Both the position numbers and the translations under genes were made by a program. Source: Flavobacteriaceae bacterium (GTDB lineage Bacteria > Bacteroidota > Bacteroidia > Flavobacteriales > Flavobacteriaceae). From it: a DNA stretch of 55,055 nucleotides. This document shows positions 12,411-55,055 of this stretch, one piece after another. Positions within the stretch are counted from its first letter, which is position 1. Each line of letters starts with the position of its first letter. The DNA lies in contig JAFMCA010000011.1 in NCBI GenBank assembly GCA_017858055.1, positions 1-55,055 on the forward strand, given 5' to 3'. Below the pieces are notes generated by a model that saw nothing but the letters and a program-made list of their open reading frames with translations, made no database searches and was not told the origin of the DNA.

Positions 12411-14036
12411 TTAAAGGGAAACTCCTCTTTTCCAGGGAATAAAATCGTGTTGTTTTAGCTGAACTGCTTTGGGAATTTCATCCCCACTTGCCACAGCAAT
12501 TATATATTCTAGCAAATCTTCTCCAACTTCTTCCAGACTTCTTTTTTCAGTAATTATGGTACCACAATCAAAATCGATGATGTCATTCATTTTTTGGGTC
12601 AAAATACTGTTGGAACTCACTTTGATGACAGGAGTGATTGGATTTCCTGTAGGGGTACCTAAGCCTGTTGTAAAGAGGATAATATTTGCACCCGAACCGG
12701 CTAATGCAGTGGTACTCTCTACGTCATTTCCTGGGGTACACAATAAGGAAACACCATCCGTATTTGCGTATTCTGTATAATCCAACACTTCACGAATTGG
12801 TGCATTCCCCGATTTTTTTGCCGCTCCTGCAGATTTCATAGCGTCTGTAATTAATCCATCTTTTATGTTTCCGGGTGAAGGATTCATGTCAAAACCAGAA
12901 CCCACTTTTTCTGCAGCATTTTCATATTGTTTCATTAAGCTTAAAAACTTTTGAGCGAGTGCATCGGAGGTGCATCGGTTGACAAGTTCTTGTTCAACAC
13001 CAGCCAATTCTGGAAATTCCGCGAGTATGGTTTTTCCCCCTAAAGCGGATAAAATATCAGAGACTTGACCTAGAGTAGGGTTGGCCGTGATTCCTGAAAA
13101 TCCATCGGAGCCTCCACACTCTAATCCAATGGTTAATTTGGATAAAGGTGAAGGAGTTCGTTTAATTTCATTGGCCTTTTGGATTTCTTCAAAAGATTGT
13201 GAGATTATTTTAGATAAAAACGCATCTACTGTTCCTTCTGTTTGTTGATCAAAAATTAAAACGGGTTTTTCATTTCCTTTTTGTAAATCGGAAAGGGCTT
13301 CCTTAAATACAGAAATTTCAAGGTTTTGGCATCCTAAACTCAAAACGGTAGCACCGGCTACATTGGGGTTATTAACGTAACCTGCCAATAATCTTGCTAA
13401 CGATTGTGCGTCCTGTCTTGTTCCACCACAACCCCCTTGATGGGTCAGAAAGCGAACTTTGATATTATCGTAGGGATTTGCTTTATGTGCTACTTTTTCT
13501 ATTGGACTGTTCCGTTCCGTATTCCCTTGAACAAGTTGGCTAAGCAATTGTTGTAAAGGCTCTTTTTCAGGGGGATTAAATTCTTTTTCAAAGATTACTT
13601 TTAGCTTTTCAATATTTCGATTTTCACAAAACACCAGAGGGAAAAACAACCAAATGTTCTCTGTACCAACTTGACCATCAGGGCGTGGATAGCCCATAAA
13701 AGTTCTTTTCTCCCACTTCGTGGTATCAGGAGCAGTCCATTCCCATGGAGCTGTTTTACCTTCTACCTTTTGAATTTTATGTTTAACGTTTTCAGTGGTT
13801 AATACACCACCTTGAGGGATGGTTACGAGGGCTTCACCGACAAGAACTCCGTACATATAGATGGGATCGCTCGGTTGAAATTCGACCAATGCAAATTTGT
13901 GTTTCAAAGGAATGGGGTCAACTAAATCAAAAGAAACGTTTTCCAATTGAATAGTGTAGCCTTTTTTCAGGTTATCCAAAGCAACAACAACGTTGTCTTT
14001 TGGATGAATTTTTAATATCGGAGCTCTAGAATTCAT
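12411..14036 (-). CDS. uxaA: Altronate dehydratase
   Basis: 541 residues. The N-terminal 95 residues form a SAF domain (IHPKDNVVVALDNLKKGYTI) and the rest is the D-galactarate/altronate dehydratase core with MGYPRPDGQVGTENIW, THQGGCGGTRQDA and LECGGSDGFSGITANP. It converts D-altronate to 2-keto-3-deoxy-gluconate in the cytoplasm, an iron-dependent reaction in the family. A full-length protein with both domains fused is usual in Bacteroidota. The start codon overlaps by 4 bp the uxaB stop, so the two consecutive pathway steps are translationally coupled. Confidence 0.96.
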   Translation of the reverse strand: MNSRAPILKIHPKDNVVVALDNLKKGYTIQLENVSFDLVDPIPLKHKFALVEFQPSDPIYMYGVLVGEALVTIPQGGVLTTENVKHKIQKVEGKTAPWEWTAPDTTKWEKRTFMGYPRPDGQVGTENIWLFFPLVFCENRNIEKLKVIFEKEFNPPEKEPLQQLLSQLVQGNTERNSPIEKVAHKANPYDNIKVRFLTHQGGCGGTRQDAQSLARLLAGYVNNPNVAGATVLSLGCQNLEISVFKEALSDLQKGNEKPVLIFDQQTEGTVDAFLSKIISQSFEEIQKANEIKRTPSPLSKLTIGLECGGSDGFSGITANPTLGQVSDILSALGGKTILAEFPELAGVEQELVNRCTSDALAQKFLSLMKQYENAAEKVGSGFDMNPSPGNIKDGLITDAMKSAGAAKKSGNAPIREVLDYTEYANTDGVSLLCTPGNDVESTTALAGSGANIILFTTGLGTPTGNPITPVIKVSSNSILTQKMNDIIDFDCGTIITEKRSLEEVGEDLLEYIIAVASGDEIPKAVQLKQHDFIPWKRGVSL

Positions 14037-15481
14037 TGATTTTTAAGGTGTTTATAATAGGAACTTTCGATATCATTTTGTTCAAAATCATTGAGTACCG
14101 CAGTCAGTTGGTCAGCTAATTTCGGAATTTCATTCAGATTCTGATCCCAAGAGGCGTGATCTGCTAAGATCTCTTTTACCCGCTCTCCCGTGGATTCGAT
14201 TTTCCAAAAGTTTTTGTATTTCATAACCACATTGGCATCATCTTGAACAGGAAGTTGTTTTCCTTTCCATTCTCCTTGATAAAATTTAATAAGACAGGCA
14301 AATGAGAATACTAAATTAGGGGGTAGTGTATTTGTTTTCTCAAAAAAAGAAAGTAGGCTAGGGAGTACCCGTACTTTAAACTTTGCAATGGAATTAAGTG
14401 CAATACTTGCCAAATAGTGGTTGATAAAAGGATTTTTGAACCGATCAAAAACAGCTTCTGTAAATTGTTTTAAGACGGTTTGATCCATTGCCAAAGTGGG
14501 TGCAATTTCATTTCTGACGGTTTGTTCAAGGAAATGTTGCGTAAATTCAGATTTGAATAAATCACTTACCGTTTGATGACCGTATAAAAGTGCCAAAGGT
14601 ACCGTGGAGGTATGTGCGCCGTTTAAAATTCGAACTTTCTGAGTTCTAAAGGGCTGTAAATCCTCGACAACTTTGATGTCTAAATCAATTTGATCGAGAT
14701 GTAATTTCGATTTTAATTGATCATTCCCTTCAATTACCCATAAAAAAAAGGGTTCTGCGGTAACGAGTAGGGTGTCCTTATAGTCCAATTGCTCCTCATA
14801 AAAGGCCAAATTTTCTCTAGGATAGCCGGGCACAATTCGATCCACGAGGGTATTGCAAAAAGTGTTTGCTGTTTCAATCCACTGAATAAACGAGGCTCCT
14901 AAATTCCAAAGGTGCGCATAATCCAACACGGTTTTCTTTAATGTGTCGGCATTGTAATTGATCAACTCGCAGGGTAAAATATGCAAACCAGAGGCATCGC
15001 TTCCGTTAAAGTGAGTAAATCGTTCCCAGAGGAGTCGAGTAAGTTTTGCGGGAAAACTGCTTGGGGGACGATCACTAAACTGATCCGAAGCTACAAATTG
15101 AATACCAGCCTCTGTAGTATTTGAAAAAATAAATTCCAAATCGGGAAGTTTTCCCAATTCAAGAAAAGCAGCAAAATCGACATAGGGATTGTTCGTTTTA
15201 ACAATCGTTTGAATCAGCTTTTTCTCTTGGATTTGTTTTGTATTCTGAAGCCCATTTAAAAATAAGGTATATGCTCCTCCTTGACTTTCCAGTTGGCTAA
15301 CCATTCCTTGTTCTATGGGTTGAATGACTGCTATACCGCCATTGTATTGTGCCTTTTGATTGAGTTGATGAACAACCTCCCCTATAAAAGCTCTGAGGAA
15401 ATTTCCTTCCCCAAATTGTAAAATCTTTACAGGAAGTTCACTCTGTTTTACTAATACTTTTTTATCTACTGAATTACTCAT
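14033..15481 (-). CDS. uxaB: Tagaturonate reductase (altronate oxidoreductase)
   Basis: 482 residues of the polyol-specific long-chain dehydrogenase family. ILQFGEGNFLRAF (residues 20-32) is the Rossmann motif, VRILNGAHTSTVPLA contains the catalytic-region NGAH, and KFKVRVLPSLLSF is typical of UxaB. It reduces D-tagaturonate to D-altronate with NADH, between the UxaC and UxaA steps. The gene lies 8 bp after the TRAP permease gene and overlaps uxaA by 4 bp. Length agrees with E. coli UxaB; no odd features seen. Confidence 0.94.
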   Translation of the reverse strand: MSNSVDKKVLVKQSELPVKILQFGEGNFLRAFIGEVVHQLNQKAQYNGGIAVIQPIEQGMVSQLESQGGAYTLFLNGLQNTKQIQEKKLIQTIVKTNNPYVDFAAFLELGKLPDLEFIFSNTTEAGIQFVASDQFSDRPPSSFPAKLTRLLWERFTHFNGSDASGLHILPCELINYNADTLKKTVLDYAHLWNLGASFIQWIETANTFCNTLVDRIVPGYPRENLAFYEEQLDYKDTLLVTAEPFFLWVIEGNDQLKSKLHLDQIDLDIKVVEDLQPFRTQKVRILNGAHTSTVPLALLYGHQTVSDLFKSEFTQHFLEQTVRNEIAPTLAMDQTVLKQFTEAVFDRFKNPFINHYLASIALNSIAKFKVRVLPSLLSFFEKTNTLPPNLVFSFACLIKFYQGEWKGKQLPVQDDANVVMKYKNFWKIESTGERVKEILADHASWDQNLNEIPKLADQLTAVLNDFEQNDIESSYYKHLKNQ

Positions 15482-15489
15482 TTCTATTT

Positions 15490-16785
15490 TTAAAAACCAA
15501 ATTTATGTGGAAGCCAAAGCGTTATTTGAGGGAAAAAGGTTATCAGCATTAAGGCAACAATCATGGCGATAAACAAAGGCATTAATGGCTTGATCACTTT
15601 TTCGATACTCGTCTTTGCAATTCCTATTCCGACGAAAAGTACTGAGCCTACGGGTGGAGTACACAAACCAATACATAAGTTGAGAACCATAATGATTCCG
15701 AATTGAATCGGATCGACTCCCAATGATTTGACTACCGGTAAAAAAATAGGTGTGAAGATTAAAACAGCAGGGGTCATATCCATAAACACCCCAACAAAAA
15801 GAAGTAATAAATTGATTATCAACAAGATGACAACTTTATTGTCGCTGATACTTAGAAGAAGATCGCTTAAACTTTGAGGTATATTTTCATAAGACATGAT
15901 CCAAGACATGCTCATCGATGCAGCAATCAATAGCATTACTACGGCACTAGTTTTTGCAGATTCTAATAAAATTTCAGGGAGGTCTTTGATTCCAATTTCT
16001 TTATAGGCAAACCCTAGCAGTAAGGTATAGATTACGGCTACTGCAGAAGCTTCGGTAGCGGTGAAATAACCCGCAACAATTCCACCAATGACGATAACCA
16101 AAAGCAATAAACTAGGGAAAGCGATAATAAAGGTTTTTAAAACTTGTTTTATACTACTTCGTTTAAAGGTTGGATACCCTTTTCTTTTTGCCCAGATAGC
16201 GGCTACAATCATGAGGAAAAGCCCAGTTAAAATTCCTGGCACATATCCTGCAAGGAAGAGCGCTGCAATGGAGACGCCTCCACTGGCAAGAGAATAAACA
16301 ATCAATACATTACTGGGAGGGATAACCAAACCAATAGTAGCCGAGGTAATATTTACCGCTGCACCGTATTCTTTGTCGTATCCTTCTTTTTCCATTTCGG
16401 GTCCGAGGATACTTCCCATAGCAGAGGCTGAAGCCATAGCTGAACCGGCGATTGCACCCATCAGCATGGCAGAAATAATGTTAATTAAGGCTAAACCACC
16501 CGGTAACGCACCTACTATGGTTTTCGCAAAACTGATTAATCGGTCCGCGATACCTCCATGGGTCATCAGTTGGCCAGAAAGGACGAAAAAGGGGATGGCG
16601 AGTAAAGCAAAACTATCCAATCCCGTTCCCATTCTCTGTGCAATGGTGGTAACTGCTGCTAAACTAGGGATAGAAACTAAGATGGTGAGCAAAGAGGAAA
16701 TGGCGATACTCCAAGCCACGGGAGTTCCTATTGCGATAAAAAAGATAAAACTGAATACGAGAATAAAAACTGGTAATAATTCCAT
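15490..16785 (-). CDS. dctM: TRAP transporter large permease (DctM type)
   Basis: 431 residues, hydrophobic along its length with about twelve predicted membrane segments. MTHGGIADRLISFAKTIVG, GSAMASASAMGSILGPEM and NLCIGLCTPPVGSVLFVG are hallmarks of the DctM/SiaM large subunit that forms the Na+-coupled transport path in the inner membrane. Genes for the small subunit and binding protein lie directly upstream (6 bp, then a 14-bp overlap). Placement among uronate genes makes hexuronates the probable substrate. Confidence 0.95.
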   Translation of the reverse strand: MELLPVFILVFSFIFFIAIGTPVAWSIAISSLLTILVSIPSLAAVTTIAQRMGTGLDSFALLAIPFFVLSGQLMTHGGIADRLISFAKTIVGALPGGLALINIISAMLMGAIAGSAMASASAMGSILGPEMEKEGYDKEYGAAVNITSATIGLVIPPSNVLIVYSLASGGVSIAALFLAGYVPGILTGLFLMIVAAIWAKRKGYPTFKRSSIKQVLKTFIIAFPSLLLLVIVIGGIVAGYFTATEASAVAVIYTLLLGFAYKEIGIKDLPEILLESAKTSAVVMLLIAASMSMSWIMSYENIPQSLSDLLLSISDNKVVILLIINLLLLFVGVFMDMTPAVLIFTPIFLPVVKSLGVDPIQFGIIMVLNLCIGLCTPPVGSVLFVGIGIAKTSIEKVIKPLMPLFIAMIVALMLITFFPQITLWLPHKFGF

Positions 16786-16791
16786 GAGCGG

Positions 16792-17250
16792 TTAGTTCTT
16801 GTTTTGCGTGAGTTTGTAAAAAATAATTAATAGTCCGCTGATGGGGATTATTCCATAGACCACGGCCAATGGAATTTTTAGGGAAGGTGAAAACTGTTCT
16901 AATTTAGCGGTGATATAAACCAATCGGCTCCCTCCAACGAGCATCCCGAAAAAAGCAAAACCGATCACGGAGAGTGTTATGAATCGAGCGATATTTTTTT
17001 GTCGTTTTTCAGAAAACTTTTTTGCAAAAAAATCGATTGCCACATGTTCGTTTTTTCCAGCAACATAGGCTGCCCCTAAAATCCCCAACCAAATCATTAA
17101 ATAACGAGCTAGTTCATCAGTAAATGAACTTGGGGTAGAAGTGAAAAATCGAGTAAAAACTTGCCACAACACATTGATTACCATGACACTGAGGATCAAA
17201 ATAAGTACACGCTCTACGATTTTATCTATTGTTGCTCTAATTGCTTTCAT
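16792..17250 (-). CDS. dctQ: TRAP transporter small permease (DctQ type)
   Basis: 152 residues with four predicted membrane segments. VFTRFFTSTPSSFTDELARY followed by LMIWLGILGAAYVAGKNEHV is the signature of DctQ subunits. It forms the inner-membrane complex with the 431-residue large subunit encoded 6 bp downstream. Its first 14 bases overlap the end of the binding-protein gene, which argues for coupled translation in the order DctP-DctQ-DctM. Confidence 0.93.
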   Translation of the reverse strand: MKAIRATIDKIVERVLILILSVMVINVLWQVFTRFFTSTPSSFTDELARYLMIWLGILGAAYVAGKNEHVAIDFFAKKFSEKRQKNIARFITLSVIGFAFFGMLVGGSRLVYITAKLEQFSPSLKIPLAVVYGIIPISGLLIIFYKLTQNKN

Positions 17251-18217
17251 TTCTTATACGATCTATTAATATTGAAATTTCTGGATCTTCTCTAAAGGAT
17301 TCATACATCGGCAGGGTTGCTTTCTGAAATAATCTTTTTTCGGGATAGCTTACTTCTACACCAGCTTCAATAACAGCTTGTAAAGATTCGTTTTCGGATT
17401 GAATCCAAAGCTCTCTTTGATAGGGTACGGAAAGGTCTATGGCCTTTTGCAACCATTCTTGTTCTTGAGGTTTTAATCGATTCCAAAGGTGGGTGCTAAC
17501 CAACAGTATGTCAGGAATCATGGTATGTTCATCAATAATGTAATATTTACAGACTTCATAATGCCTTGATAAATAAAAACTTGGTGGATTATTTTCAGCT
17601 CCATCTACAACTCCTTGCTGTATAGCGGTATACAATTCCCCCCATGAAATTGGAGTAGGGGAGCCTCCAAGTTGTTTTACCATTTCAAATGCAGAAGCAC
17701 TCTCTTGCACTCTAATTTTAAGTCCTTGTAAATCATCTGGTGTTTCAACAGGTCTTTCTCTTGTATAAAAACTTCGACTTCCAGAGTCGTAAAAACCAAT
17801 TCCCTTTAACCAATAGTCATCTCCTTCGCTTAATATTTCTTTCCCAATGGGTCCGTCCAAAACACGGAACAAATGCTGTTTGTCGTCAAAAAGAAATGGT
17901 AAACCAAAGATTCTGAGTTTTGGAGCAAAATTTTCCATAACTGCACCCGAGACTTTAGCCATATCCAAACTACCAATTTGCAATAATTCTAGACATTCCC
18001 GTTCACTACCCAACTGTTGGTTTGGGTAAATTTGGATTCTCATTTTTCCTCCAGAGAGTTTATTTAAATGTTCATCGGCTTTGATCATGGCTTGATGAAC
18101 TGAGTGGGTAACATCTAATCCGTGTCCAAGACGGATAATCCGTTTTGTAGAAACTGTATTGCACCCCATTAAAAAGCTACAGAAAAGCGTCAATAAAATC
18201 AATTTGCCTTGCTTCAT
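17237..18217 (-). CDS. dctP: TRAP transporter substrate-binding protein (DctP family), lipoprotein
   Basis: 326 residues. The signal peptide ends in FLMGCNTVS, so it is probably a lipoprotein, whereas most DctP proteins are soluble. IRLGHGLDVTHSVHQAM and SGGKMRIQIYPNQQLGSERE are DctP hallmarks. The Arg near residue 170 in LQGLKIRVQES matches the conserved carboxylate-binding Arg of the family, consistent with an acidic sugar such as galacturonate or glucuronate. Its start overlaps the aldolase stop by 4 bp. Confidence 0.92.
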   Translation of the reverse strand: MKQGKLILLTLFCSFLMGCNTVSTKRIIRLGHGLDVTHSVHQAMIKADEHLNKLSGGKMRIQIYPNQQLGSERECLELLQIGSLDMAKVSGAVMENFAPKLRIFGLPFLFDDKQHLFRVLDGPIGKEILSEGDDYWLKGIGFYDSGSRSFYTRERPVETPDDLQGLKIRVQESASAFEMVKQLGGSPTPISWGELYTAIQQGVVDGAENNPPSFYLSRHYEVCKYYIIDEHTMIPDILLVSTHLWNRLKPQEQEWLQKAIDLSVPYQRELWIQSENESLQAVIEAGVEVSYPEKRLFQKATLPMYESFREDPEISILIDRIRNESN

Positions 18218-18888
18218 GTAGATTTTTTTAAGGATTGTATAAGTGCCAAAGTAGATTTCACCGTTTCAGTCAATTCTGCATAGGCTTTGTTTTTGATGAC
18301 GGTTGTGGATATCAGTTGAGAACCCATCCCAACACAAGTAACTCCGGCATCAAACCAGGCTTTTAAATTATCAGCTTCGGTAGTTACTCCACCTGTTGGC
18401 ATTATACTTGTCCAAGGTTGAGGGCCTTTTATTGCTTTTACAAAACTAGGACCATATAGATTTCCAGGAAAAAGTTTTACGATTTCTGCACCCAATTCTT
18501 CTGCTCTTGCAATTTCTGTGAGTGAACCGCATCCGGGAGACCACAAGACTTTTCTTCGGTTACATACGATTGCTATATCTTCTCTAAAAACAGGAGTTAC
18601 GATAAAGTTAGCTCCTATCATCATATAATAACTTGCAGAAGCAGCATCGGTAACGGATCCTACCCCTAAAATCATACCGGGTAAATTGGTTCGTGTATAG
18701 TCGATTAGTTCTCGAAAAACTTCTTGAGCAAAATCTCCTCGATGGGTAAACTCCAATAAACGAGCTCCACCATCATAACAGGCTTTAATAATTTCTTTTG
18801 CTGTATCCGCATCCTCATGATAGAATAGAGGAACCATTCCATTTTGCTGTAGGACTGAAATAACTTCATGTCTAGTGTATTGTGCCAT
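18214..18888 (-). CDS. eda: 2-keto-3-deoxy-6-phosphogluconate aldolase (KDPG/KHG aldolase)
   Basis: 224 residues, a single class I aldolase barrel. LEFTHRGDFAQEV contains the catalytic Glu, GVGSVTDA is a phosphate-site motif and AEIVKLFPGNLYGPSFVKA holds the Schiff-base Lys. It splits KDPG to pyruvate and glyceraldehyde 3-phosphate, the last step of uronate breakdown. It lies 8 bp after kdgK, the preceding enzyme, and overlaps dctP by 4 bp. Confidence 0.95.
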   Translation of the reverse strand: MAQYTRHEVISVLQQNGMVPLFYHEDADTAKEIIKACYDGGARLLEFTHRGDFAQEVFRELIDYTRTNLPGMILGVGSVTDAASASYYMMIGANFIVTPVFREDIAIVCNRRKVLWSPGCGSLTEIARAEELGAEIVKLFPGNLYGPSFVKAIKGPQPWTSIMPTGGVTTEADNLKAWFDAGVTCVGMGSQLISTTVIKNKAYAELTETVKSTLALIQSLKKST

Positions 18889-18896
18889 AATAAAAT

Positions 18897-19937
18897 TTAT
18901 CGTGCAACGCGCCCTGAGGCATCGCCACTCATTAGTTTTTGAACTTCATCAACAGTTACCAAATTTGCATCCCCTTTAATGGTATGTTTCAAACAAGAGG
19001 CAGCTACCGCAAAATCAAGAGCATGCTGATCGTCCTCTGGGAAAGCAATGAGTCCATAGATTAAGCCACCCATAAACGAATCTCCACCTCCTACACGATC
19101 TACAATATGAGTAATTTGGTATTGAGAACTTTCATACATTTTGGATCCATCATAAAGAACCCCAGCCCAAGTATTATGTGAGGCAGAAATCGATCCTCGG
19201 AGTGTAGTGATTACTTTTTTTGCTTTTGGAAATTTGATCATCATTTGTTTACACACCGATAAAAATGCAGCTGCACTAACATCATGACCGTGTTTCGTAA
19301 CGTCAAGACCCTCAGGTTTGATTCCAAAGTGTTTCTCTGCATCTTCTTCATTCCCCAGAATCACATCGCAGTAGGAAGTTAATTCCGTCATAATTTTTTC
19401 GCGATCTCCACCATAATTCCAAAGTTTAGCTCTGTAATTCAGATCTGTGGAAATGGTAATCCCCATTTCACTGGCCGTTTTTACTGCTTCAAGACAAGCG
19501 TCCGCTGCACCTTGAGAAATGGCTGGGGTAATACCAGTCCAGTGAAACCATGAAGAATTTTTAAAAACCGATTTCCAATCAATCATCCCAGGTTTGATTT
19601 CAGCCATAGCTGAATGGGCACGGTCATACACTACTTTACTTCCCCTAGATACAGCACCCGTCTCTAAAAAATAAATCCCGAGACGATCTCCTCCTCGAAT
19701 AATATGCTCAGTGTTAACTCCTCGTTTACGCATTTCCATCAAGGCACAATCTCCCAAATCATTGTTGGGAAGTCTTGTGATAAAACTTGTAGGAATACCA
19801 TAGTTGGCAAGGGATACAGAAACATTAGATTCACCACCACCATAAACAACATCGAATTGATTAGTTTGTGAAAATCTCAAAAATTCAGGTGGAGAAAGGC
19901 GTAGCATGATCTCTCCAAAAGTGACTACTTGACTCAT
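18897..19937 (-). CDS. kdgK: 2-keto-3-deoxygluconate kinase (PfkB family)
   Basis: 346 residues of the ribokinase/PfkB fold. VTFGEIMLRLSPPEFLRFSQ is the typical KDG-kinase N-terminus, YGGGESNVSVSLANYG the sugar-binding region, and DRVGGGDSFMGGLIYG the PfkB signature 2 with the catalytic Asp. It phosphorylates KDG to KDPG with ATP. It sits 13 bp after uxaC and 8 bp before the aldolase gene, so gene order follows pathway order at this end of the operon. Confidence 0.94.
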   Translation of the reverse strand: MSQVVTFGEIMLRLSPPEFLRFSQTNQFDVVYGGGESNVSVSLANYGIPTSFITRLPNNDLGDCALMEMRKRGVNTEHIIRGGDRLGIYFLETGAVSRGSKVVYDRAHSAMAEIKPGMIDWKSVFKNSSWFHWTGITPAISQGAADACLEAVKTASEMGITISTDLNYRAKLWNYGGDREKIMTELTSYCDVILGNEEDAEKHFGIKPEGLDVTKHGHDVSAAAFLSVCKQMMIKFPKAKKVITTLRGSISASHNTWAGVLYDGSKMYESSQYQITHIVDRVGGGDSFMGGLIYGLIAFPEDDQHALDFAVAASCLKHTIKGDANLVTVDEVQKLMSGDASGRVAR

Positions 19938-19950
19938 TGTTGGTTTAAAA

Positions 19951-21348
19951 TTAGTAATTAAAATACGATTTAGCGTTTTGATATGAAATGTCGCTGATGA
20001 TAGAACCTATCCATTCAGGATCATTCGGTAAAAGTCCTTTTTTCATGTCATTACCGAACAAGTTACAGATTAATCTTCTAAAATATTCATGTCTTGGGAA
20101 GGAAAGAAAACTTCTTGAATCGGTAAGCATCCCGATAAAACAACTAATCAGCCCCATATTAGATAAAATATTGATTTGATCCGTCATGCCATCGAGTTGG
20201 TCAAGAAACCACCATCCGGATCCCCACTGGATTTTTCCTTTGACACTTCCATCGTTAAAGTTTCCAATCATTGTAGCCAGCATTTCATTGTCTGCTGGAT
20301 TCAGATTGTATAAAATGGTTTTGCTCAGCTGGTTATCGCGATCTAATGCGTTTAAAAATTGAGAAAGACTCCGGGCTGTAGGAAATTGCCCTATGGAGTC
20401 CCATCCGGTATCTGGGCCGAGTTTTTGGAACATGCGACTATTGTTGTTTCGCATGGCACCTAAATGAAATTGTTGAACCCAACCCAATTTATGGTAGCCT
20501 TTTCCAAGGAAGAGGAGAAGTGCTGTTTGAAATTTTTCTTTTTCAAGAAGATTAATTTCTCCTCCAGTTCGTTTCTTTTTAAAGATACTTTGGACCTCAT
20601 TTTCGGTAAAAGATTCAAAGGGAATGTACTCTAAACCGTGATCTGATAGGCGACACCCTTTACTGTGGAAATAATTCATTCTATTTTGCAGGGCAAGGCA
20701 TAGATCTTCGTAGGTATGTATATTTTGATTGGATGCTCGCCCCAACTGATCGAGGTAGTCATTATAGGCCTCCCCGTCAATAAACAAAGACTTATCAGGT
20801 CGAAAAGCAGTACTCACTTTTACATTAAAGTCAGAAGAGGCAAGAGTAGTATGGTGTTCTAAACTATCGATAGGATCTTCTGTAGTGCAAAGGATTTCTA
20901 CATTCATTTTTTGAAGCAACGATTGGGTAGAAAACTCTTTTGTTTGCACTAAAGCCGAAGTTTTTTCGTAAACGTTAACGGCGTTTTTTGCACTCAATAA
21001 TTCGTTAATTCCAAAATATCGACTGAGCTCCATGTGTGTCCAATGATAAAGTGGATTTCGGATCATGTAGGGGGTTGATTCAGCAAATTTGATAAATTTA
21101 TCCCTGTCATTAGCACTACCCGTTATGAAATTCTCACTCACACCTAAAGTACGCATGGCTCGCCATTTATAGTGGTCCCCAGCTAGCCAGAGGGAAGTTA
21201 TGTTCTTGTACGTTGTGTTGTTTGCAATGGCCTCAGGAGGGAGGTGGTTATGATAATCTATAATAGGAAGTTTAGCAGCGTATCCATGATAAAGGTTTTT
21301 TGCTTCCTTGGATTCCAGTAGAAAATCTTCATTTATAAAGTTTGTCAT
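19951..21348 (-). CDS. uxaC: Glucuronate/galacturonate isomerase
   Basis: 465 residues from the ATG at 21346-21348 (MTNFINEDFLLESKEAKNLY). An upstream in-frame ATG at 21381 would add eleven residues unlike the family, so the later start is chosen. DYHNHLPPEAIANN (residues 31-44) carries the metal-ligand His pair of this amidohydrolase-fold isomerase; GAMRNNNSRMFQKLGPDTGW and WGSGWWFLDQ are UxaC hallmarks. It turns D-galacturonate into tagaturonate and D-glucuronate into fructuronate, so it feeds both branches found in the window. It is the first gene of the sixteen-gene minus-strand operon and lies 153 bp from the 18-bp operator. A partial copy of the operator lies inside its coding region. 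Confidence 0.96.
   Translation of the reverse strand: MTNFINEDFLLESKEAKNLYHGYAAKLPIIDYHNHLPPEAIANNTTYKNITSLWLAGDHYKWRAMRTLGVSENFITGSANDRDKFIKFAESTPYMIRNPLYHWTHMELSRYFGINELLSAKNAVNVYEKTSALVQTKEFSTQSLLQKMNVEILCTTEDPIDSLEHHTTLASSDFNVKVSTAFRPDKSLFIDGEAYNDYLDQLGRASNQNIHTYEDLCLALQNRMNYFHSKGCRLSDHGLEYIPFESFTENEVQSIFKKKRTGGEINLLEKEKFQTALLLFLGKGYHKLGWVQQFHLGAMRNNNSRMFQKLGPDTGWDSIGQFPTARSLSQFLNALDRDNQLSKTILYNLNPADNEMLATMIGNFNDGSVKGKIQWGSGWWFLDQLDGMTDQINILSNMGLISCFIGMLTDSRSFLSFPRHEYFRRLICNLFGNDMKKGLLPNDPEWIGSIISDISYQNAKSYFNY
20965..20982. promoter_or_regulatory. Possible auxiliary LacI-type operator inside uxaC
   Basis: TTCGTAAACGTTAACGGC matches 15 of 18 bases of the palindrome at 21501-21518, including the central ACGT core and one full half-site minus its end. 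The centre-to-centre distance is 536 bp. LacI-family regulators often use a second weaker operator in the first gene for looping, as lac O2 does. The match sits in codons for AVNVYEK, so chance cannot be excluded. Confidence 0.35.
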
Positions 21349-21452
21349 AGAGGTAAAGTAATGTCCTAAAATAGTGCACAATAGTCCACGAAACCGCTTT
21401 GAATATTCACTTTAAAAGCCCTAAAATAGTTCTTTTTTAATTTTTTTAACTT

Positions 21453-21488
21453 TTTGTTAGAATATCCTAATATTTATTTCTAATATTG
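21453..21488 (+). promoter_or_regulatory. Possible Bacteroidota-type promoter for susC
   Basis: TTTG at 21453-21456 and TAATATTG at 21481-21488 resemble the -33 TTTG and -7 TAnnTTTG elements of Bacteroidota promoters, with one mismatch in the -7 box and a slightly long 24-base spacer. The predicted start would fall just before the operator at 21501, a normal geometry for repression. Weak support. Confidence 0.3.
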
Positions 21489-21500
21489 TTATAATTATGA

Positions 21501-21518
21501 TTCGTTAACGTTAACGAA
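21501..21518. promoter_or_regulatory. LacI-family operator in the uxaC-susC divergent region
   Basis: TTCGTTAACGTTAACGAA is a perfect 18-bp palindrome with a central CpG, the form bound by LacI/PurR-type regulators. It lies 33 bp before the susC start and 153 bp before the uxaC start, so it can control both directions. The same 18 bases occur at 31870-31887 on the other side of the LacI gene. Confidence 0.82.
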
Positions 21519-21550
21519 AGTAAATAAAATAACTTTAAATAAACATAAAC

Positions 21551-24500
21551 ATGAGAAATTTATTAAAAATTACCCTTACGTTTTCCTTTATGCTTATGAG
21601 TATTGTACTTTTCGCTCAAGGTACCGTAAGCGGTAATGTTTTTGACTCTGAAACAGGAACTCCTTTACCGGGAGTGAATGTTGTCGTTCAGGGAACTTCG
21701 ACTGGTGTTTCTACAGACTTTGATGGAAATTATCAAATTTCAGTTTCACAAGGAGCTGTTTTGGAGTTCTCTTTCATTGGATTCGAAACTCAATCGATTT
21801 CAGTTAGTGGAGATCAAATTAACGTTTCAATGATCCCCTCTGCAGATTCCCTAGACGAAATTGTTGTAACAGGGTATGGAACACAAACAAGAAGAGAAGT
21901 AACAGGTTCTATTGTTAGTATTGGTAGTGAAAGCATTGAAAAAATTGCTACCGGTAGTGGAGTAGATGCCATTAAAGGACAAGTTGCTGGAGTGGACATT
22001 ACCTCTGGTGGTGGACGCCCAGGTCAGAATCCTGTAGTACGGGTTCGTGGACGACGTTCAATTTCTGCTTCTAACGATCCCCTTTATGTTATTGATGGAA
22101 TTCCACAGACCAGTAGTACGGGTGATGGAGCTATCTTTGACATTAACCCTCAAGACATCCAGTCAATGGAAATCTTAAAAGATGCAGCAGCAACAGCGAT
22201 TTATGGATCTCGTGGTGCAAATGGTGTAATCTTAATAACAACTAAAAGAGGTAGAACTGGAGATACCAAAATCAACTATTCTGGATATTATGGTGTTAGT
22301 TCTGTAACCAATATTCCTGATATGATGAATGGTGAAGAATATGCCGCTGCAAGAAGAGAGGCATTTCGTCAAGACGCCAACAGTAGATATTCTTATGCGG
22401 GTACTATTCCTAATGATGAGGCTGTGTTTCTTGGAGATGCTGCACAATTGGAATCCATCAGAACAGGAAGATCTTTTGATTATCTAGATGCAGTATTAAA
22501 CCAAGGATACCAAAACAGTCATCAAATTTCTGCAAATGGTGGATCGGAGAGTACTCAATACAATGTCTCCGTAGGATACTTCAAAGAAGACGGTATTATC
22601 GATCAAATGGATTTTGAGCGTATTACTGGACGAGTAAATTTAGATCACAGAATCAACGATACATTCAAATTTGGAATTTCAATGCTGTTGAGTAACTCGG
22701 TAAACAACTGGGGTTCTTCAGCAGTAATGAGCGAAGCTTTAGCAAACATTCCAATTGGAAAGCCTTATGCTGATGATGGAAGTATAAATTTCTTTGCGTT
22801 TAATGACGGGATCAGAACAAACCCATTAAGTGAGTTGGTTCCTGGTGCTTATGTTGACGAAAGAATTTCTACACGTTTTTTCGCGCCTATTTATTTACAA
22901 GTAAATTTAGCAGAAGGTCTTCAATTCACTTCAACTTTTGGACCTGATATGCGTTTCAGAAGACGTGGAGAATTCCGTGATCGTTTTACCAATGACAATC
23001 GTGGAGGACCAGCAGATGCTGAAGTTGAAAACAAAAAAGAATTTGGATTTACTTTAGAAAACCTAGTTACTTACAATAAAGATATTGGACCTGGAAATTT
23101 AAAAGTTACCTTATTACAGTCTATCCAAGAGTTTAGTTCTGAATTTGCTAAAGCAGAAGTTCAAAACTTACCCTATTCTTCACAGTTATGGTATAATATC
23201 GGAACTGCTGAGGTTAAAGGAAATCTTTCTTCTGGCCTAAGCGAATGGCAACTTCAGTCCTATATGGGTCGAGTAAATTATAACATTGACGGTAAGTATT
23301 TATTTCAAGCTTCGTTGCGTGCGGATGGATCCTCACGTTTAGCTGAAGGAAACAAATGGGCATATTTCCCAGGGGTTTCTTTAGGATGGAGAGTACTTGA
23401 AGATATTTCTCCTGATAACGCTACTTTTGATGAATTCAAATTAAGAGCTTCCTATGGAGAAGTAGGGAATACCGCAATTTCTCCTTACCAAACTCAAGGA
23501 GCTCTTGCAAGAACGGTCTATGCTTGGAATGAAACTCCTGCATTTGGGTACCGTTTAAATGATATTCCTAATCCAGATTTAGGATGGGAAATTTCTAAAA
23601 CTATTGATGTTGGATTTGACTATAGTCTTCTAGAAGGAAGAATATCGGGTGCCTTTGATTATTATGTAACCAATACAACCGACTTACTCCTTGCAAGAAA
23701 CCTTCCCTATACTTCTGGATACACTAGTGTATTCCAGAATGTAGGAGCCACAAAAACCAATGGGGTAGAATTCAATGTGAACGCTGCAATCGTGGAAAGC
23801 GATAAATTCTCTTGGGATGTCAATTTTAATATTTCAGGATACAATGAAGCAATTGTTGAATTAGCTTTAAAAGATGAAAGCGGGAATCCTGTAGACGATG
23901 CTGGTAACAACTGGTTTATAGGACAACCCATCCGAGTCTTTTTTGACTATACCAAATCAGGTATTTGGCAACTCAATGAAGCTGATCAGGCTGCTGCTAT
24001 TCAGGGTACAGATCCTGGACAAATTAAATTGGCAGACATCAATGGGGACGGTAAAATTACCCCAGCAGATAGAAGCGTATTGGGTTCAGACGTTCCTGAA
24101 TATTTTGGAGGGATCACAAACACCCTCACTTACGGGAACTTTGATTTGAGTGCATTCTTCTACTTCCGTCAAGGACATATGATTCAGAGTGATTTCCACG
24201 TAGGAAATGCGAATGGTCAGTTGCGTTACAATCACTTGAATGTGGATTATTGGACACCAACAAATCCAACAAATGATTATCCAAGACCTAACTTTACACA
24301 AGAGCGTCCAGAAAATGGTTCTACATTAACGTATTTTGACGGGAGCTATGTGAAGTTAAGAAACGTTACTTTAGGATATAATTTTGAAAGCAGTACGGCT
24401 TCAAAATTAGGATTTGATAACCTTAGAGCCTATGTACAGGGACAAAACCTTTGGTTTAGTTCAGAATACGATACATTTGATCCTGAGGTTGGTGAGGCTA

Positions 24501-24565
24501 CTTTGGGATCTGGAACTACACCCAGTTCAAAGTTGATTGCTTTCGGAATCAGAGCTGGATTTTAA
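21551..24565 (+). CDS. susC: SusC/RagA-family TonB-linked outer membrane transporter
   Basis: 1004 residues. Sec signal peptide (residues 1-22, ending LFAQ), then a carboxypeptidase-regulatory-like domain (VSGNVFDSETGTPLPGVNVV, about 26-100), a TonB-box-like and plug region (DEIVVTGYGTQTRREVTGS, from about 103) and a large beta-barrel ending in IAFGIRAGF, whose terminal Phe suits BAM insertion. An EF-hand-like DINGDGKITPADRSVLG near residue 835 is usual in SusC. It imports glycan fragments over the outer membrane with the SusD lipoprotein encoded 18 bp downstream. Divergence from uxaC across a shared operator points to uronate-containing oligosaccharides as cargo. Confidence 0.96.
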   Translation: MRNLLKITLTFSFMLMSIVLFAQGTVSGNVFDSETGTPLPGVNVVVQGTSTGVSTDFDGNYQISVSQGAVLEFSFIGFETQSISVSGDQINVSMIPSADSLDEIVVTGYGTQTRREVTGSIVSIGSESIEKIATGSGVDAIKGQVAGVDITSGGGRPGQNPVVRVRGRRSISASNDPLYVIDGIPQTSSTGDGAIFDINPQDIQSMEILKDAAATAIYGSRGANGVILITTKRGRTGDTKINYSGYYGVSSVTNIPDMMNGEEYAAARREAFRQDANSRYSYAGTIPNDEAVFLGDAAQLESIRTGRSFDYLDAVLNQGYQNSHQISANGGSESTQYNVSVGYFKEDGIIDQMDFERITGRVNLDHRINDTFKFGISMLLSNSVNNWGSSAVMSEALANIPIGKPYADDGSINFFAFNDGIRTNPLSELVPGAYVDERISTRFFAPIYLQVNLAEGLQFTSTFGPDMRFRRRGEFRDRFTNDNRGGPADAEVENKKEFGFTLENLVTYNKDIGPGNLKVTLLQSIQEFSSEFAKAEVQNLPYSSQLWYNIGTAEVKGNLSSGLSEWQLQSYMGRVNYNIDGKYLFQASLRADGSSRLAEGNKWAYFPGVSLGWRVLEDISPDNATFDEFKLRASYGEVGNTAISPYQTQGALARTVYAWNETPAFGYRLNDIPNPDLGWEISKTIDVGFDYSLLEGRISGAFDYYVTNTTDLLLARNLPYTSGYTSVFQNVGATKTNGVEFNVNAAIVESDKFSWDVNFNISGYNEAIVELALKDESGNPVDDAGNNWFIGQPIRVFFDYTKSGIWQLNEADQAAAIQGTDPGQIKLADINGDGKITPADRSVLGSDVPEYFGGITNTLTYGNFDLSAFFYFRQGHMIQSDFHVGNANGQLRYNHLNVDYWTPTNPTNDYPRPNFTQERPENGSTLTYFDGSYVKLRNVTLGYNFESSTASKLGFDNLRAYVQGQNLWFSSEYDTFDPEVGEATLGSGTTPSSKLIAFGIRAGF

Positions 24566-24583
24566 ATTTTAAACACAAAAAAA

Positions 24584-26215
24584 ATGAAAAAACAGATTTT
24601 AAAAAACATTCTAGTAGTACTGGGGATTTCATTGTTCCTATCCTGTGAAAACTTCTTGGATGAGAACAATATTGCTGATGTTTCTGCAGGATCTTATTAT
24701 ACTACCTCGCAAGGGTTAGAAGATGCTGTAAAAGCAACATATGGGATCATGAAGGAATTTTATGGTACGGAATTAGGGTTCTCGATGAACGTATTCGGAA
24801 CAGATACCTATACGAATGGTGCCGATGGTAGCCATAAGTATTTGAACTGGTATAATAACCAACACAATTCCTCAGCGGCTTATTTCAGAGATACCTGGAG
24901 AATTATGTATCGAGGGATAAACCAAGCAAATGCGGTAATTAACAGAGCAGAGAGTATCGAAGATATGGATGCTGCTGTAAAAAACTCAAGAATTGCGGAA
25001 GTACGGTTTTTACGTGCGCTTTATTACTTTAATCTTGTCCGTTATTACGGGGATGTTCACCTGTCTCTAGAGGAAACTCAGGGAGTAGAAACTGAGGCAA
25101 ATAGAACTTCTGTGCAAGAAGTTTATGGTCAAGCAATTATTCCTGATTTGGAATTTGCAGCTTCTACTTTGCCTGCTACTCAATCTGAATACGGAAGAGT
25201 TACAAAGGCTGCTGCAGAATTTTTGTTAGCAAAAGTTCATTTAACAGCTCCTCAGGGAAGTGCAGCACAAGCCGCTAATTTGATGTCAAATGTAATCAAC
25301 AACTACAACTTCTCTTTATTAGAGGATTGGTCCGATTTGTGGGACATCAATAACGAAGAAAACTCAGAAGTGGTTTGGACTATTATCAATTCAAAACAAC
25401 AAGTGGATGAGGGATTAGATGACTATGGTCATAGAGGTCACTTATATTTCTTATTTGAGTATGATAAGCGTCCTGGTATGACTCGTGATACTGAAAATGG
25501 TCGTCCATGGAAGCGTTTTAGACCAACCAATCATTTATTAAGTCTTTGGGATAGAACAAAAGATGCTCGTTATGATAAAGGATACAAGCACGTATGGTAT
25601 GCAAATAATCCGATACCAGGTCAAAAAGTTGGGGATACTGCACTTTATATTCCTGGACCTGGGGTAGATCGTAACGGTGTAGATCAAGACGGAAAATGGA
25701 CTCAGGCTGCAAAAGACGGAGTACTTTTTCAAGTCTATACTACAGATCAGTACAACCAAGTTATCTTTCCTTCTTTAAACAAGTGGATTGATAACACAAG
25801 ACCAAACCGTCAGCATACGCAAGGACAGCGTGACTTTATCCTTATGCGATTAGCGGATGCCTATTTAATTCGAGCTGAAGCCAACCTAAAACTAGGGAAT
25901 GCTGCTCTAGCTGCAGAGGATTTAAACGTAATCCGTAAACGTGCAGCATGGGAAGGTCAACAAGCTGCAATGGAAATTACAGCCAATGACGTAACCATAG
26001 ATTTCATCTTGGATGAACGTGCTCGTGAGCTTGTAGGAGAAGGACATCGCTGGTTTGATTTGGTCCGTAACAATAAATTAATAGAGCGTGTAAAAGCGCA
26101 CAATATTGATGCTAAAGATAATATTCAGTCGTACCACATTTTAAGACCGATACCTTTAGATCAAATTGATAGAACTGAGGGTGGGTATGCACAAAACCCA
26201 GGATACACTCAATAA
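24584..26215 (+). CDS. susD: SusD/RagB-family glycan-binding lipoprotein
   Basis: 543 residues with a lipoprotein signal (LGISLFLSCENFLDE). The helical tetratricopeptide-like SusD fold shows in IAEVRFLRALYYFNLVRYYG and in the C-terminal block FILDERARELVGEGHRWFDL, followed by the conserved ending HILRPIPLDQIDR. It caps the SusC transporter at the cell surface and binds the oligosaccharide. Only a short spacer separates it from susC and the pair ends at a strong hairpin, so the two genes form a simple bicistronic unit. Confidence 0.96.
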   Translation: MKKQILKNILVVLGISLFLSCENFLDENNIADVSAGSYYTTSQGLEDAVKATYGIMKEFYGTELGFSMNVFGTDTYTNGADGSHKYLNWYNNQHNSSAAYFRDTWRIMYRGINQANAVINRAESIEDMDAAVKNSRIAEVRFLRALYYFNLVRYYGDVHLSLEETQGVETEANRTSVQEVYGQAIIPDLEFAASTLPATQSEYGRVTKAAAEFLLAKVHLTAPQGSAAQAANLMSNVINNYNFSLLEDWSDLWDINNEENSEVVWTIINSKQQVDEGLDDYGHRGHLYFLFEYDKRPGMTRDTENGRPWKRFRPTNHLLSLWDRTKDARYDKGYKHVWYANNPIPGQKVGDTALYIPGPGVDRNGVDQDGKWTQAAKDGVLFQVYTTDQYNQVIFPSLNKWIDNTRPNRQHTQGQRDFILMRLADAYLIRAEANLKLGNAALAAEDLNVIRKRAAWEGQQAAMEITANDVTIDFILDERARELVGEGHRWFDLVRNNKLIERVKAHNIDAKDNIQSYHILRPIPLDQIDRTEGGYAQNPGYTQ

Positions 26216-26243
26216 TTCAAGTGTTTTTAGTTTAAGTTTGAAG

Positions 26244-26273
26244 AAGGTCGCATTTGCGGCCTTTTTCTTTTTC
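26244..26273 (+). terminator. Rho-independent terminator of susC-susD
   Basis: An 8-bp stem AAGGTCGC/GCGGCCTT (one G-T pair) with a 4-base loop is followed by a T-rich tract. It lies 29 bp after the susD stop and abuts the end of the convergent LacI-family gene, so it separates the two transcripts. Confidence 0.85.
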
Positions 26274-27331
26274 TATAAGTTTTCTTTAAGGATTACTTCT
26301 ACAGGGATGGTATGGTTTAGTTCTTCATCCTCTTGTTCTGTAAGAAATTTGAATAGTCCTTTTACGGCACTATAGCCCTGAAATTCAGGCTTCTGATTGA
26401 TAATAAACTGAATCTTATTCTCTCTTAACAATTCAATATTCCCTGGATTAAGATCATAGCCAATCAGTGTACTCTGCGCTGCTAATCCAATTTTTTCTAG
26501 AATTTTTGGCAGCAAATAAGCCCGTGAATTGGTCACGAATATTCCTAAAGGTGTATGGTCTTTTTTGAAAGCAAGGAGTTTTTTTTCTAAAGAATTAATT
26601 TTAGAATCGTCAGCGGTTATCAAAAGTATGTTTGGCTTAAAATTTGGGACTTCCTCTTCAAAAAAGGATTTAAATCCAGATTCACGTTCTAAATTGTTTT
26701 TTTGAGTTTCTGTATTGTTATTAATCAAATTGAACACAAGATAATTCCCACGGTCTTTTATAATTTGATAAAGTATGCGTCCAGCTACTTTTCCACTTTG
26801 CAATGAATTCTGAGAGATGAAATAATTTTGTTCTTGATTTACATCGTGTTTTGTATCAATATAAACAATGGGAATATTCAGAGCATCCGCTTGCTCTCGT
26901 AGGGATTGGCATTCATCAGCAAAGAAAGGGACGGTAATTATCGCATTTGTCGCGTTTTTTAAAATTTGTTGACTTGCTCGCTTAAAAGATTTTTTGTTGC
27001 TAATATCAAAAACAAACAATTCATGAGAAATTCCCATTTCTTTGAGTTCTGCTACTGCCTTTTGTACCCCTAATAAGGGTAGATGCCAATAGTGATCTTC
27101 CAGGTAGGCTTCTTTTGGAAACAATACGGATATACTAATGGACTTACTCTTAGCCAGCTTTAGACGGCTTGCTACATTGTTTTTTTTGTAACCTGTATGC
27201 TTGATTACTGCATTGACATGCTTAGCCGTTTTTTTCGAAACGCCACTTCTGTTGTTAATTACCCGGTCAACAGTCCCAATGGAGACTCCTGACAATTCAG
27301 CAATTTTTTTTATTCCAACAGTATCTTTCAT
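26273..27331 (-). CDS. LacI-family transcriptional regulator
   Basis: 352 residues. The N-terminal helix-turn-helix GIKKIAELSGVSIGTVDRVI (residues 6-25) is followed by the hinge GYKKNNVASRLKLAKS (about 47-62), whose Leu is expected to wedge into a central CpG. The rest is a periplasmic-binding-protein-like effector domain (SISISVLFPKEAY, IITVPFFADEC, LIGYDLNPGNIELL) of the ribose-binding type. The gene lies between two divergent promoter regions that carry the same CpG-centred palindrome and is therefore the best candidate for binding both. The ligand is likely a uronate or a pathway intermediate. No copy of the palindrome was seen in its own upstream region. Confidence 0.93.
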   Translation of the reverse strand: MKDTVGIKKIAELSGVSIGTVDRVINNRSGVSKKTAKHVNAVIKHTGYKKNNVASRLKLAKSKSISISVLFPKEAYLEDHYWHLPLLGVQKAVAELKEMGISHELFVFDISNKKSFKRASQQILKNATNAIITVPFFADECQSLREQADALNIPIVYIDTKHDVNQEQNYFISQNSLQSGKVAGRILYQIIKDRGNYLVFNLINNNTETQKNNLERESGFKSFFEEEVPNFKPNILLITADDSKINSLEKKLLAFKKDHTPLGIFVTNSRAYLLPKILEKIGLAAQSTLIGYDLNPGNIELLRENKIQFIINQKPEFQGYSAVKGLFKFLTEQEDEELNHTIPVEVILKENL

Positions 27332-53921: not shown

Positions 53922-54611
53922 TTAGAAATCCATTACTCTTAAGAAAAGAGTGGTTGTGATCATTTTACGTATTCCTGAAACTTTTTTAGAGAAGTCCGCA
54001 AATAAGGGGTCTGACATCATTTGCTTTGTTCTAGTGAGTGCCGTTTCTAGATCAGGAGCTCCTACCCAAACAAAATGGGAGAATTCCGCTGATTTTCCAA
54101 CAATGGGATAGGCTAAACCAAATGAGTTGTTTTCAAATCCTAACTTTTTCGCTAATTTAGGAGTAAAGCTTTTGAATTCGGCTAAATAAGTAGCCGGGTC
54201 GCTCACTTGCATTTTATAAAATACAAAAGCATCGTCATTTGCCCAGTCTTGACCATTATACCAAATGGGAGTGTTTAAAGTTTGAGAAACATTTTGAATA
54301 TATTTACCCAGTTTTTCGCCAAATAGTTGTGCCTCAATAGACGTTCCAAAGGAATTGAAAAAAGCGCCTAGAGCCTTTTCATCAGGAAAACAAAATTGTA
54401 TGGAATGGGTGGCTTGATTCGTTCCGTTAAACTGATAGGCAAAAAGTGATTTTGTTCCCTGAATGTTTTTACCCCAACCAGTTTCCATCATACCTTTTAA
54501 GGTAGAAACAACCATTTCCGGGTTTTTTGCTTCAAAATCGTAAAATATACAATATTGTGCATTTAAAGCTAGTGTGCTAAATAACATTAATGATACTACA
54601 AGTTTTTTCAT
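53922..54611 (-). CDS. Secreted protein of unknown function, 229 residues
   Basis: A signal peptide (MKKLVVSLMLFSTLALNAQ) opens the protein. The rest is a soluble alpha/beta pattern without membrane segments, apparently with two halves of similar style: YCIFYDFEAKNPEMVVSTLK (from about 20) and FVFYKMQVSDPATYLAEFKS (from about 125). Both read like strand-helix units of dimeric ferredoxin-like domains, as in monooxygenase-ABM or NIPSNAP proteins, but I cannot assign a family. It has its own terminator and about 200 bp of spacer upstream. Likely a monocistronic gene. Confidence 0.7.
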   Translation of the reverse strand: MKKLVVSLMLFSTLALNAQYCIFYDFEAKNPEMVVSTLKGMMETGWGKNIQGTKSLFAYQFNGTNQATHSIQFCFPDEKALGAFFNSFGTSIEAQLFGEKLGKYIQNVSQTLNTPIWYNGQDWANDDAFVFYKMQVSDPATYLAEFKSFTPKLAKKLGFENNSFGLAYPIVGKSAEFSHFVWVGAPDLETALTRTKQMMSDPLFADFSKKVSGIRKMITTTLFLRVMDF

Positions 54612-54806
54612 TTTAATTGATTTATGATTAATAATTCCCCTAAGATAGAAAGAAAGAAAGGATTACATATCAAATCGTATTCTCCTATTCCAATAGAAAA
54701 ACCGTTTTCTAAAACCCATGCCACTGTTTAGGTAAAGAGCGGTTGAGAGGTTTTGGGGTAATAAAATGTATTTATTGTATGAATGCCGTACAAGATAAAA
54801 AATAAA
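54612..54806. other. Intergenic region upstream of the secreted-protein gene
   Basis: AT-rich spacer of about 195 bp holding the presumed promoter of the minus-strand gene at 53922-54611. No ORF, repeat or operator copy seen. Confidence 0.5.
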
Positions 54807-54845
54807 AAATCCCTAAACTATTGATATTCAATAATAAAGGGATTT
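54793..54845 (-). terminator. Terminator of a former tRNA/tmRNA gene
   Basis: On the minus strand AAATCCCT and AGGGATTT pair (plus-strand 54838-54845 and 54807-54814), with an inner ATTGA/TCAAT hairpin between them, followed by TTTATTTTTTATC. It stands 5 bp after the 3'-end remnant at 54851-54863, exactly where a stable-RNA terminator would be expected. Confidence 0.65.
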
Positions 54846-54850
54846 GTTAA

Positions 54851-54863
54851 GTGGAGTCGGCGG
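54851..54863 (-). other. 3'-end remnant of a tRNA or tmRNA gene, probable attachment site
   Basis: Read on the minus strand the 13 bases are CCGCCGACTCCAC: four bases of a T-stem 3' strand, seven of an acceptor stem (CGACTCC), discriminator A and C. This is the form of a tRNA/tmRNA 3' terminus; I believe tmRNA is the better match. The adjoining bases do not contain a T-loop (no TTCGA), so the rest of the RNA is absent. Tyrosine recombinases commonly insert at such ends and leave a copy. Confidence 0.5.
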
Positions 54864-55037
54864 CTCCTTTTCATTTGTCCTCTATTGTCATGTATTTGTA
54901 TACAATTAGCGGACAATCATTGATTTACAATTATATATGTCCTCAAAAGTTACCCATTTTAGGGTAGTATTGTGACATAGTTCAGGCAACTATCCAGGCA
55001 ACTGGAATTGTAAATGTATAATTTTAATTGATGTAGT
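54864..55037. other. Short repeats near the element boundary
   Basis: Contains the palindrome TTGTATACAA (54896-54905), the inverted pair TTGTCC/GGACAA (54875-54880 and 54911-54916) and the 9-base direct repeat CAGGCAACT at 54983-54991 and 54995-55003. These could be recombinase arm or core sites or an operator. No ORF longer than a few codons lies here. Confidence 0.35.
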
Positions 55038-55055
55038 ATGAATTTTAAGTTAAAA
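55038..55055 (+). CDS. Possible start of a tyrosine-recombinase (integrase) gene, cut by the window edge
   Basis: ATG at 55038 opens a frame reading MNFKLK to the window end. Many Bacteroidota integrases begin with a similar short basic stretch. The position, 174 bp after a tRNA/tmRNA 3'-end remnant, supports the idea, but six residues cannot prove it. Confidence 0.25.

Follow-up and report, generated by a model that had tools for sequence, protein, structure and literature searches.

The tDNA islands of Islander, as outlined in their description, are marked by displaced RNA-gene fragments, target restoration, tandem islands and frequent target switching, and they include a class with crossover in the T-stem region (PMC4383910). 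The locus described here is like these islands in having an intact RNA gene at one edge and, at the opposite edge, a 3' fragment displaced from it and lying in the same orientation; the tyrosine integrase gene expected between them is represented in the window by a putative start of six codons. Measured against that outline there is no basic difference, except that the present edges are split between two contigs, with the interior absent, and that this lineage has two features of its own, a small HUH Rep and a pair of repeats next to the integrase. The length criterion of Islander is 2-200 kb (PMC4383910), and the nine relatives in which both ends were located here span 12-31 kb. From its description, the 10K genomic island of Riemerella anatipestifer, whose integration and excision were shown by experiment, is likewise flavobacterial and has a tyrosine integrase at an RNA gene; it uses tRNA-Arg and a 53-bp repeat, whereas the present locus has a core of ~15 bp at the end of ssrA, and the likeness is one of description (PMC6764341). 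Tycheposons, as summarised in the literature, are likewise islands of small genomes that are anchored at tRNA genes, use a tyrosine recombinase and carry metabolic genes, but they belong to different phyla and are compared here by description only (PMC10872708). No paper on this particular island family was recognised in the literature searched, in which general descriptions of such islands were found.

The stretch of DNA analysed here (the window) comprises 55,055 nucleotides and is a complete contig (C27) of a Flavobacteriaceae genome (G000) of 67 contigs and 2.0 Mb. The right edge is accordingly one set by the assembly, and the element runs beyond the contig end. Judging from the sequence comparisons below, we are highly confident that positions 54849-55055 represent the attR-like junction at which an integrative genomic island in the 3' end of ssrA ends on its right side.

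The displaced tmRNA 3' end and the right end of the element

The features at the right edge of the window are as follows.

54803-54849, minus strand: terminator stem-loop 3' of the displaced tmRNA end, host side (from its arms and fold)
54849-54863, minus strand: att core, the displaced tmRNA 3' end, bounding the element on the right (exact 15-bp match to the tmRNA 3' end on contig C66; empty-site alignment)
54864-55055, no strand assigned: right end of the integrated element, 192 bp up to the contig end (identity to the right ends of relatives)
54983-55004, minus strand: direct-repeat pair, 12 bp apart, with CAGTTGCCTGGATAGTTGCCT at 54984-55004 (counterpart at C66:27225-27245; putative arm-type integrase sites)
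55038-55055, plus strand: start of a tyrosine integrase gene, six codons (MNFKLK), cut by the contig end (homology to the longer copies in G017 (L068), G019 (L071) and G057 (L108))

The minus strand reads ...GGAGCCGCCGACTCCACTT and then continues into a stem-loop and U-tract, the arms of which are 22 nt long and 82% complementary (RNA fold -17.4 kcal/mol, z -6.1). The 13-mer GTGGAGTCGGCGG at 54851-54863 has a single site elsewhere in the genome (≤1 mismatch), which is exact and forms the 3' end of the tmRNA gene on C66; the stretch that the window has in common with C66 extends to 15 bp. An earlier sequence-only reading had proposed a minus-strand stable-RNA terminator beside 13 bases resembling a tRNA or tmRNA 3' end. 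Both elements of this proposal are borne out, and the match to C66 narrows the choice to tmRNA. A simple consensus terminator scanner did not list the stem-loop, its sole entry being a plus-strand hairpin at 54853-54867. Neither ARAGORN nor Rfam gave a complete RNA gene in the window, as is to be expected because the core is a displaced fragment.

A core this short, in a window without a recognised RNA gene, might suggest a chance likeness of 13 bases beside an ordinary terminator with no element at all. However, the expectation for the exact 13-mer is ~0.008 occurrences per whole genome (single-base composition of the window), an RNA 3' end terminates all eight homologous right ends that were read (judged by sequence), and the empty-site alignment presented below crosses the junction. 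Coincidence is thus extremely improbable.

On the element side of the core, the short repeats that had been noticed previously are two copies of CAGGCAACT at 54983-54991 and 54995-55003. The stretch of 54864-55055 is about 75-85% identical to the right ends in G003, G017, G019, G020 (part only) and G010, and 79-80% identical to those in G057 and L161. The ORF at 55038 consists of an ATG and five further codons before the contig ends. Relatives share the ~200 bp upstream of it at 75-85% identity, and this stretch precedes an integrase gene that starts with MNFKLK in G017, G019 and G057; the suggested integrase start is thereby identified, through homology to the longer copies, as that of a tyrosine integrase. 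No integrase was found in G000 at E ≤ 1e-40. Three integrase-family matches in this genome (on C25, C42 and C40) were not accepted as the element's own enzyme, since none reached E 1e-40 against the element integrase; the C42 match resembles a XerC-type gene by eye, and the one on C40 belongs to a different enzyme and is truncated where the contig stops.

A separate observation concerns positions 54600-54760 (minus strand), where a leader of ~55-160 bp lies upstream of the ATG of the gene at 54611, as it also does in L074 and L075. This leader recurs before many different genes in the genus, many of them with secreted-protein-like starts, and one contig often has several copies of it, all oriented alike. 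It may represent a regulatory leader that these genes have in common, or else the boundary of a cassette. As a part of the attachment site it was discarded, because it recurs upstream of many unrelated genes.

The intact tmRNA gene and the empty site

The sequence-only reading had asked for an intact tRNA or tmRNA gene with the same 3' end. Such a gene, a complete tmRNA gene and the only one found in the genome, is present at C66:26784-27183 (L038:11785-12182). ARAGORN gives an odd tag peptide for it, which is probably a mis-call, as the GENNYALAA of relatives can be read in the sequence by eye. The gene is followed by a different terminator (fold z -5.0), then by the repeat pair CAGTTGCCTGGAGCGTTGCCT and then by an HUH-type Rep ORF, which is cut by the contig end 522 bp past the tmRNA gene. 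The repeat pair, at 27225-27245, is the partner of the pair on the element side of the window core. One further copy of the pair in the genome (≤2 mismatches) lies on C39 directly after tRNA-Ser(GCT), with nearly the same terminator; on sequence grounds we assign it to the same family, as the left end of a second member located at a different RNA gene. The complete RNA gene of one edge and the displaced piece of its 3' end that marks the other are thus both present, on separate contigs (C66 and C27). Both contigs break off within the element, and the interior of this copy is absent from the assembly. The same two edges, likewise on two contigs, were observed in G017.

The genus contains 29 tmRNA loci, 27 of which have an intact 3' end within the available stretch. 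The left end of the element is present at six of the 27 (G000, G014, G016, G017, G029 and G037) and is degenerate in G024. Repeats of the TTGTACGG type, scored by eye with divergent copies included, occur at nine, among them G009, which has the terminator type of the present element. Eleven loci, one of them cut short, have neither the left end nor TTGTACGG repeats.

An empty site in relatives is a supporting feature that lies outside the filters of Islander as these are outlined; here it was found in relatives selected by their flank, namely six of the nine TTGTACGG-type loci. When the outer flanks in G000 were joined at the core, they aligned unbroken across the junction with the tmRNA loci of all six, at 73-81% identity (G001 81% over 305; G035, G009 and G007 78% each; G023 75%; G020 73%). 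When C66 was instead read past the junction, the alignment went no further than the junction, to about position 98-103, in five of the six and reached 140 in G009 (mosaic). In some of these relatives the family is found at other RNA genes; at ssrA they lack the element. The match is a local one and is not unique to ssrA, because the relatives were chosen by flank and this type of flank also occurs after tRNA-Ser(TGA). Taken together, the core, both edges and the empty-site comparison, which the sequence-only reading had also called for, agree with the proposed attachment-site pattern and with an element continuing to the right.

Because the joined flanks align with TTGTACGG-type ssrA loci, the flank in the window probably marks the margin of an earlier insertion at ssrA by another family. 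To the left of the core, the terminator itself is similar to the left end of such an older, different element, and a further feature is found next to it.

54772-54794, minus strand: degenerate TTGTACGG-type repeat pair (aligns with tmRNA and tRNA-Ser loci carrying TTGTACGG repeats)

This pair is probably a left-end remnant of an older element from a different family that used the same tmRNA gene. The repeats of the older family would also suit a more complicated history, with islands stacked at ssrA and the C66 and window edges stemming from different insertions of the same family. A relative from another genus (G207) indeed has an extra internal core between its tRNA gene and the outermost core. 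Nevertheless, the genome has no third ssrA core (≤1 mismatch) and the same repeat family is found on both edges, so that we regard stacking as rather improbable. Our preferred interpretation is that C27 and C66 would be joined by one island.

Elsewhere in the window (14000-26300), genes for sugar-acid catabolism (UxaC, KDPG aldolase) adjoin a TonB-receptor/SusD pair. This carbohydrate-use cluster is on the host side of the ssrA junction, and may perhaps be an older island in its own right.

Integrase family, left ends and bounded islands in relatives

The same right end precedes a tyrosine integrase in G017, which belongs to the same genus, and in G057 from another genus, and the two integrases are 97% identical. 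The G017 integrase, on which the Pfam run was performed, matches PF00589 and PF13102 and begins with MNFKLK like the ORF at 55038. The gene in G057 has one internal stop, the integrase of L161 (98% identity) is in two pieces, and G019 has a piece of 283 residues that is 68% identical and cut by a contig end. Six right ends are located at ssrA (G000, G017, G003, G010, G057 and L161), one at tRNA-Ser(GCT) (G019) and one at tRNA-Ser(TGA) (G020), the number of right ends in the genus being at least that counted here. The intact partner RNA gene was looked at for two of these eight, G000 and G017.

These relatives bear on whether the window junction might be the decayed end of an island without integrase, a fossil rather than a functional attR. 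The same right end does occur without a working integrase in G003:C17 (remnants only) and G010:C41 (start only), and the G057 and L161 integrases are interrupted by an internal stop or frame break. On the other hand, the start codon, reading frame and repeats in the window are intact up to the contig end, and the near-identity of the G057 and G017 integrases across genera speaks for recent movement of the family. A fossil junction is therefore unlikely, though it deserves to be taken seriously, and we favour an island that may still be mobile at present.

A sampled search (E ≤ 1e-40) detected the integrase family in 27 of 199 genomes, with 31 matches; G000 and G012, both from the genus of the window, gave no match among the genomes listed in this search. 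The tree comprised 32 rows, i.e. 30 loci of the family search plus G017 and G019, and its target labels were assigned by eye and from motifs. One clade of 19 rows (support 100/100) takes in every row whose core is of tRNA-Ser (11) or ssrA (8), and within this clade four switches between tRNA-Ser and ssrA targets occur. The remaining 13 rows have other or unassigned cores. No relatives of Rep or integrase were found among viral contigs; the repeat pattern occurs there in two stretches, and ARAGORN finds no tRNA gene in either.

Longer stretches were taken for 11 of the 31 integrase matches. As the G057 locus is cut by its contig end, ten loci were available (two read across 20 kb, eight across 40 kb), all from other genera. 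Nine of the ten have an intact tRNA-Ser(TGA) or tmRNA gene on the far side, 12-31 kb off, and no intact RNA gene was seen in the 40 kb read for G115. The spans calculated from the core positions are, in kb, 12.1 (G097), 14.1 (G141), 15.6 (G079, at tmRNA), 16.6 (G173), 20.1 (G049), 20.5 (G135), 24.5 (G190), 25.6 (G091) and 30.7 (G207). The bounded island of G173 contains the integrase, an HTH_17 protein, Rep and nos genes (nos_propeller, NosD, NosL and ABC ATPase; Pfam), and type I restriction genes are present in G097, G079 and G135. No virion structural or packaging genes were recognised by eye in the bounded relatives listed. In L161, of which the right edge is seen, the element side carries the integrase and Xis-like genes followed by MFS, GH65 and two alpha-amylase-family genes, an alpha-glucan cargo, and a rhamnosidase lies beyond the left end in G029:C5. 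Nos genes beside tRNA-Ser(TGA) were noted twice, in L109 (G173) within the island bounded at both ends and in L174 (G023), by eye, next to a Rep-bearing left end.

The left end was searched for in 38 genomes of the genus and matched in 21. Among the 20 left-end rows with at least 170 aligned bases, the RNA gene just upstream of the match is ssrA in 5, tRNA-Ser(GCT) in 8 and tRNA-Ser(TGA) in 6, with a gap of ~75 bp between tRNA gene and match in G032:C4. The one row without a recognised RNA gene is G032:C5, where a Rep-bearing left end (L171:7912) follows a CTTCTCCGC core with no tRNA gene before it; the target here was perhaps a core that a previous island had left behind. When short matches are included, 27 of the 30 scanned left-end loci have a stable RNA gene. 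Two more left ends, at tRNA-His and tRNA-Asn, have the Rep sequence in common but different repeats.

Rep, the left-end gene, encodes ~122 amino acids, and its H-x-H and Y-x-x-K motifs, which we take to be HUH motifs, are conserved in seven homologues. By profile search only, Rep matches ORF119 of SIRV1 (PDB 2x3g) over most of its length with these motif positions aligned (E 4e-4), a similarity that is weak and sequence-based and concerns an archaeal virus protein. The latter is presumably a small HUH Rep, the PDB listing being that of a hypothetical protein. Single Rep members match REP_ORF2-G2P below the curated cut-off, and tblastn of Rep against phages gave weak, partial matches only (E 0.3-0.8). 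Rep matches were obtained in six of nine genomes at E ≤ 1e-10, and none in the genome of L161, G020 or G010 at this threshold. These features suggest that Rep may be an HUH endonuclease for rolling-circle copying or mobilisation.

Proposed mechanism and implications

The tyrosine integrase would recombine the attP of the island with the T-stem/acceptor end of ssrA. A copy of the final ~15 bp of ssrA would come with the island, as would a new terminator, and because of this ssrA on C66 would stay complete. The original 3' fragment would be displaced to the far end, where it would now be found at 54849-54863 ahead of its old terminator. The repeat pairs at both edges are most likely arm-type binding sites of the integrase. 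As judged from the relatives, the Xis-like helix-turn-helix protein probably has a role in excision, and the HUH Rep probably in copying or mobilising the excised circle.

Such integration is familiar behaviour, as are restoration of the target gene, islands in tandem and a switch of target, and the finding is ordinary in kind. The part worth following is the lineage-specific combination of repeats, Rep and metabolic cargo. We tentatively suggest that small-genome Flavobacteriaceae may share an island superfamily in which a near-constant Rep-bearing left end is combined with interchangeable integrase and repeat modules. The integrase would keep its repeat pair and shift among tmRNA, tRNA-Ser(GCT) and tRNA-Ser(TGA) by swapping a few overlap bases before the common CTCCRC, and copies without an integrase would be moved in trans. 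Carbohydrate and nitrous-oxide clusters might spread in this way and stack at the same RNA genes.

The junction provides a boundary for mobile islands of these small-genome flavobacteria that is exact and can be checked, and the core, terminator, repeat pair and Rep together offer a sequence handle by which cargo clusters can be recognised as mobile even when a metagenome genome is fragmented. Should the cargo pattern hold, these islands would be a concrete means by which genes for polysaccharide and nitrous-oxide use spread.
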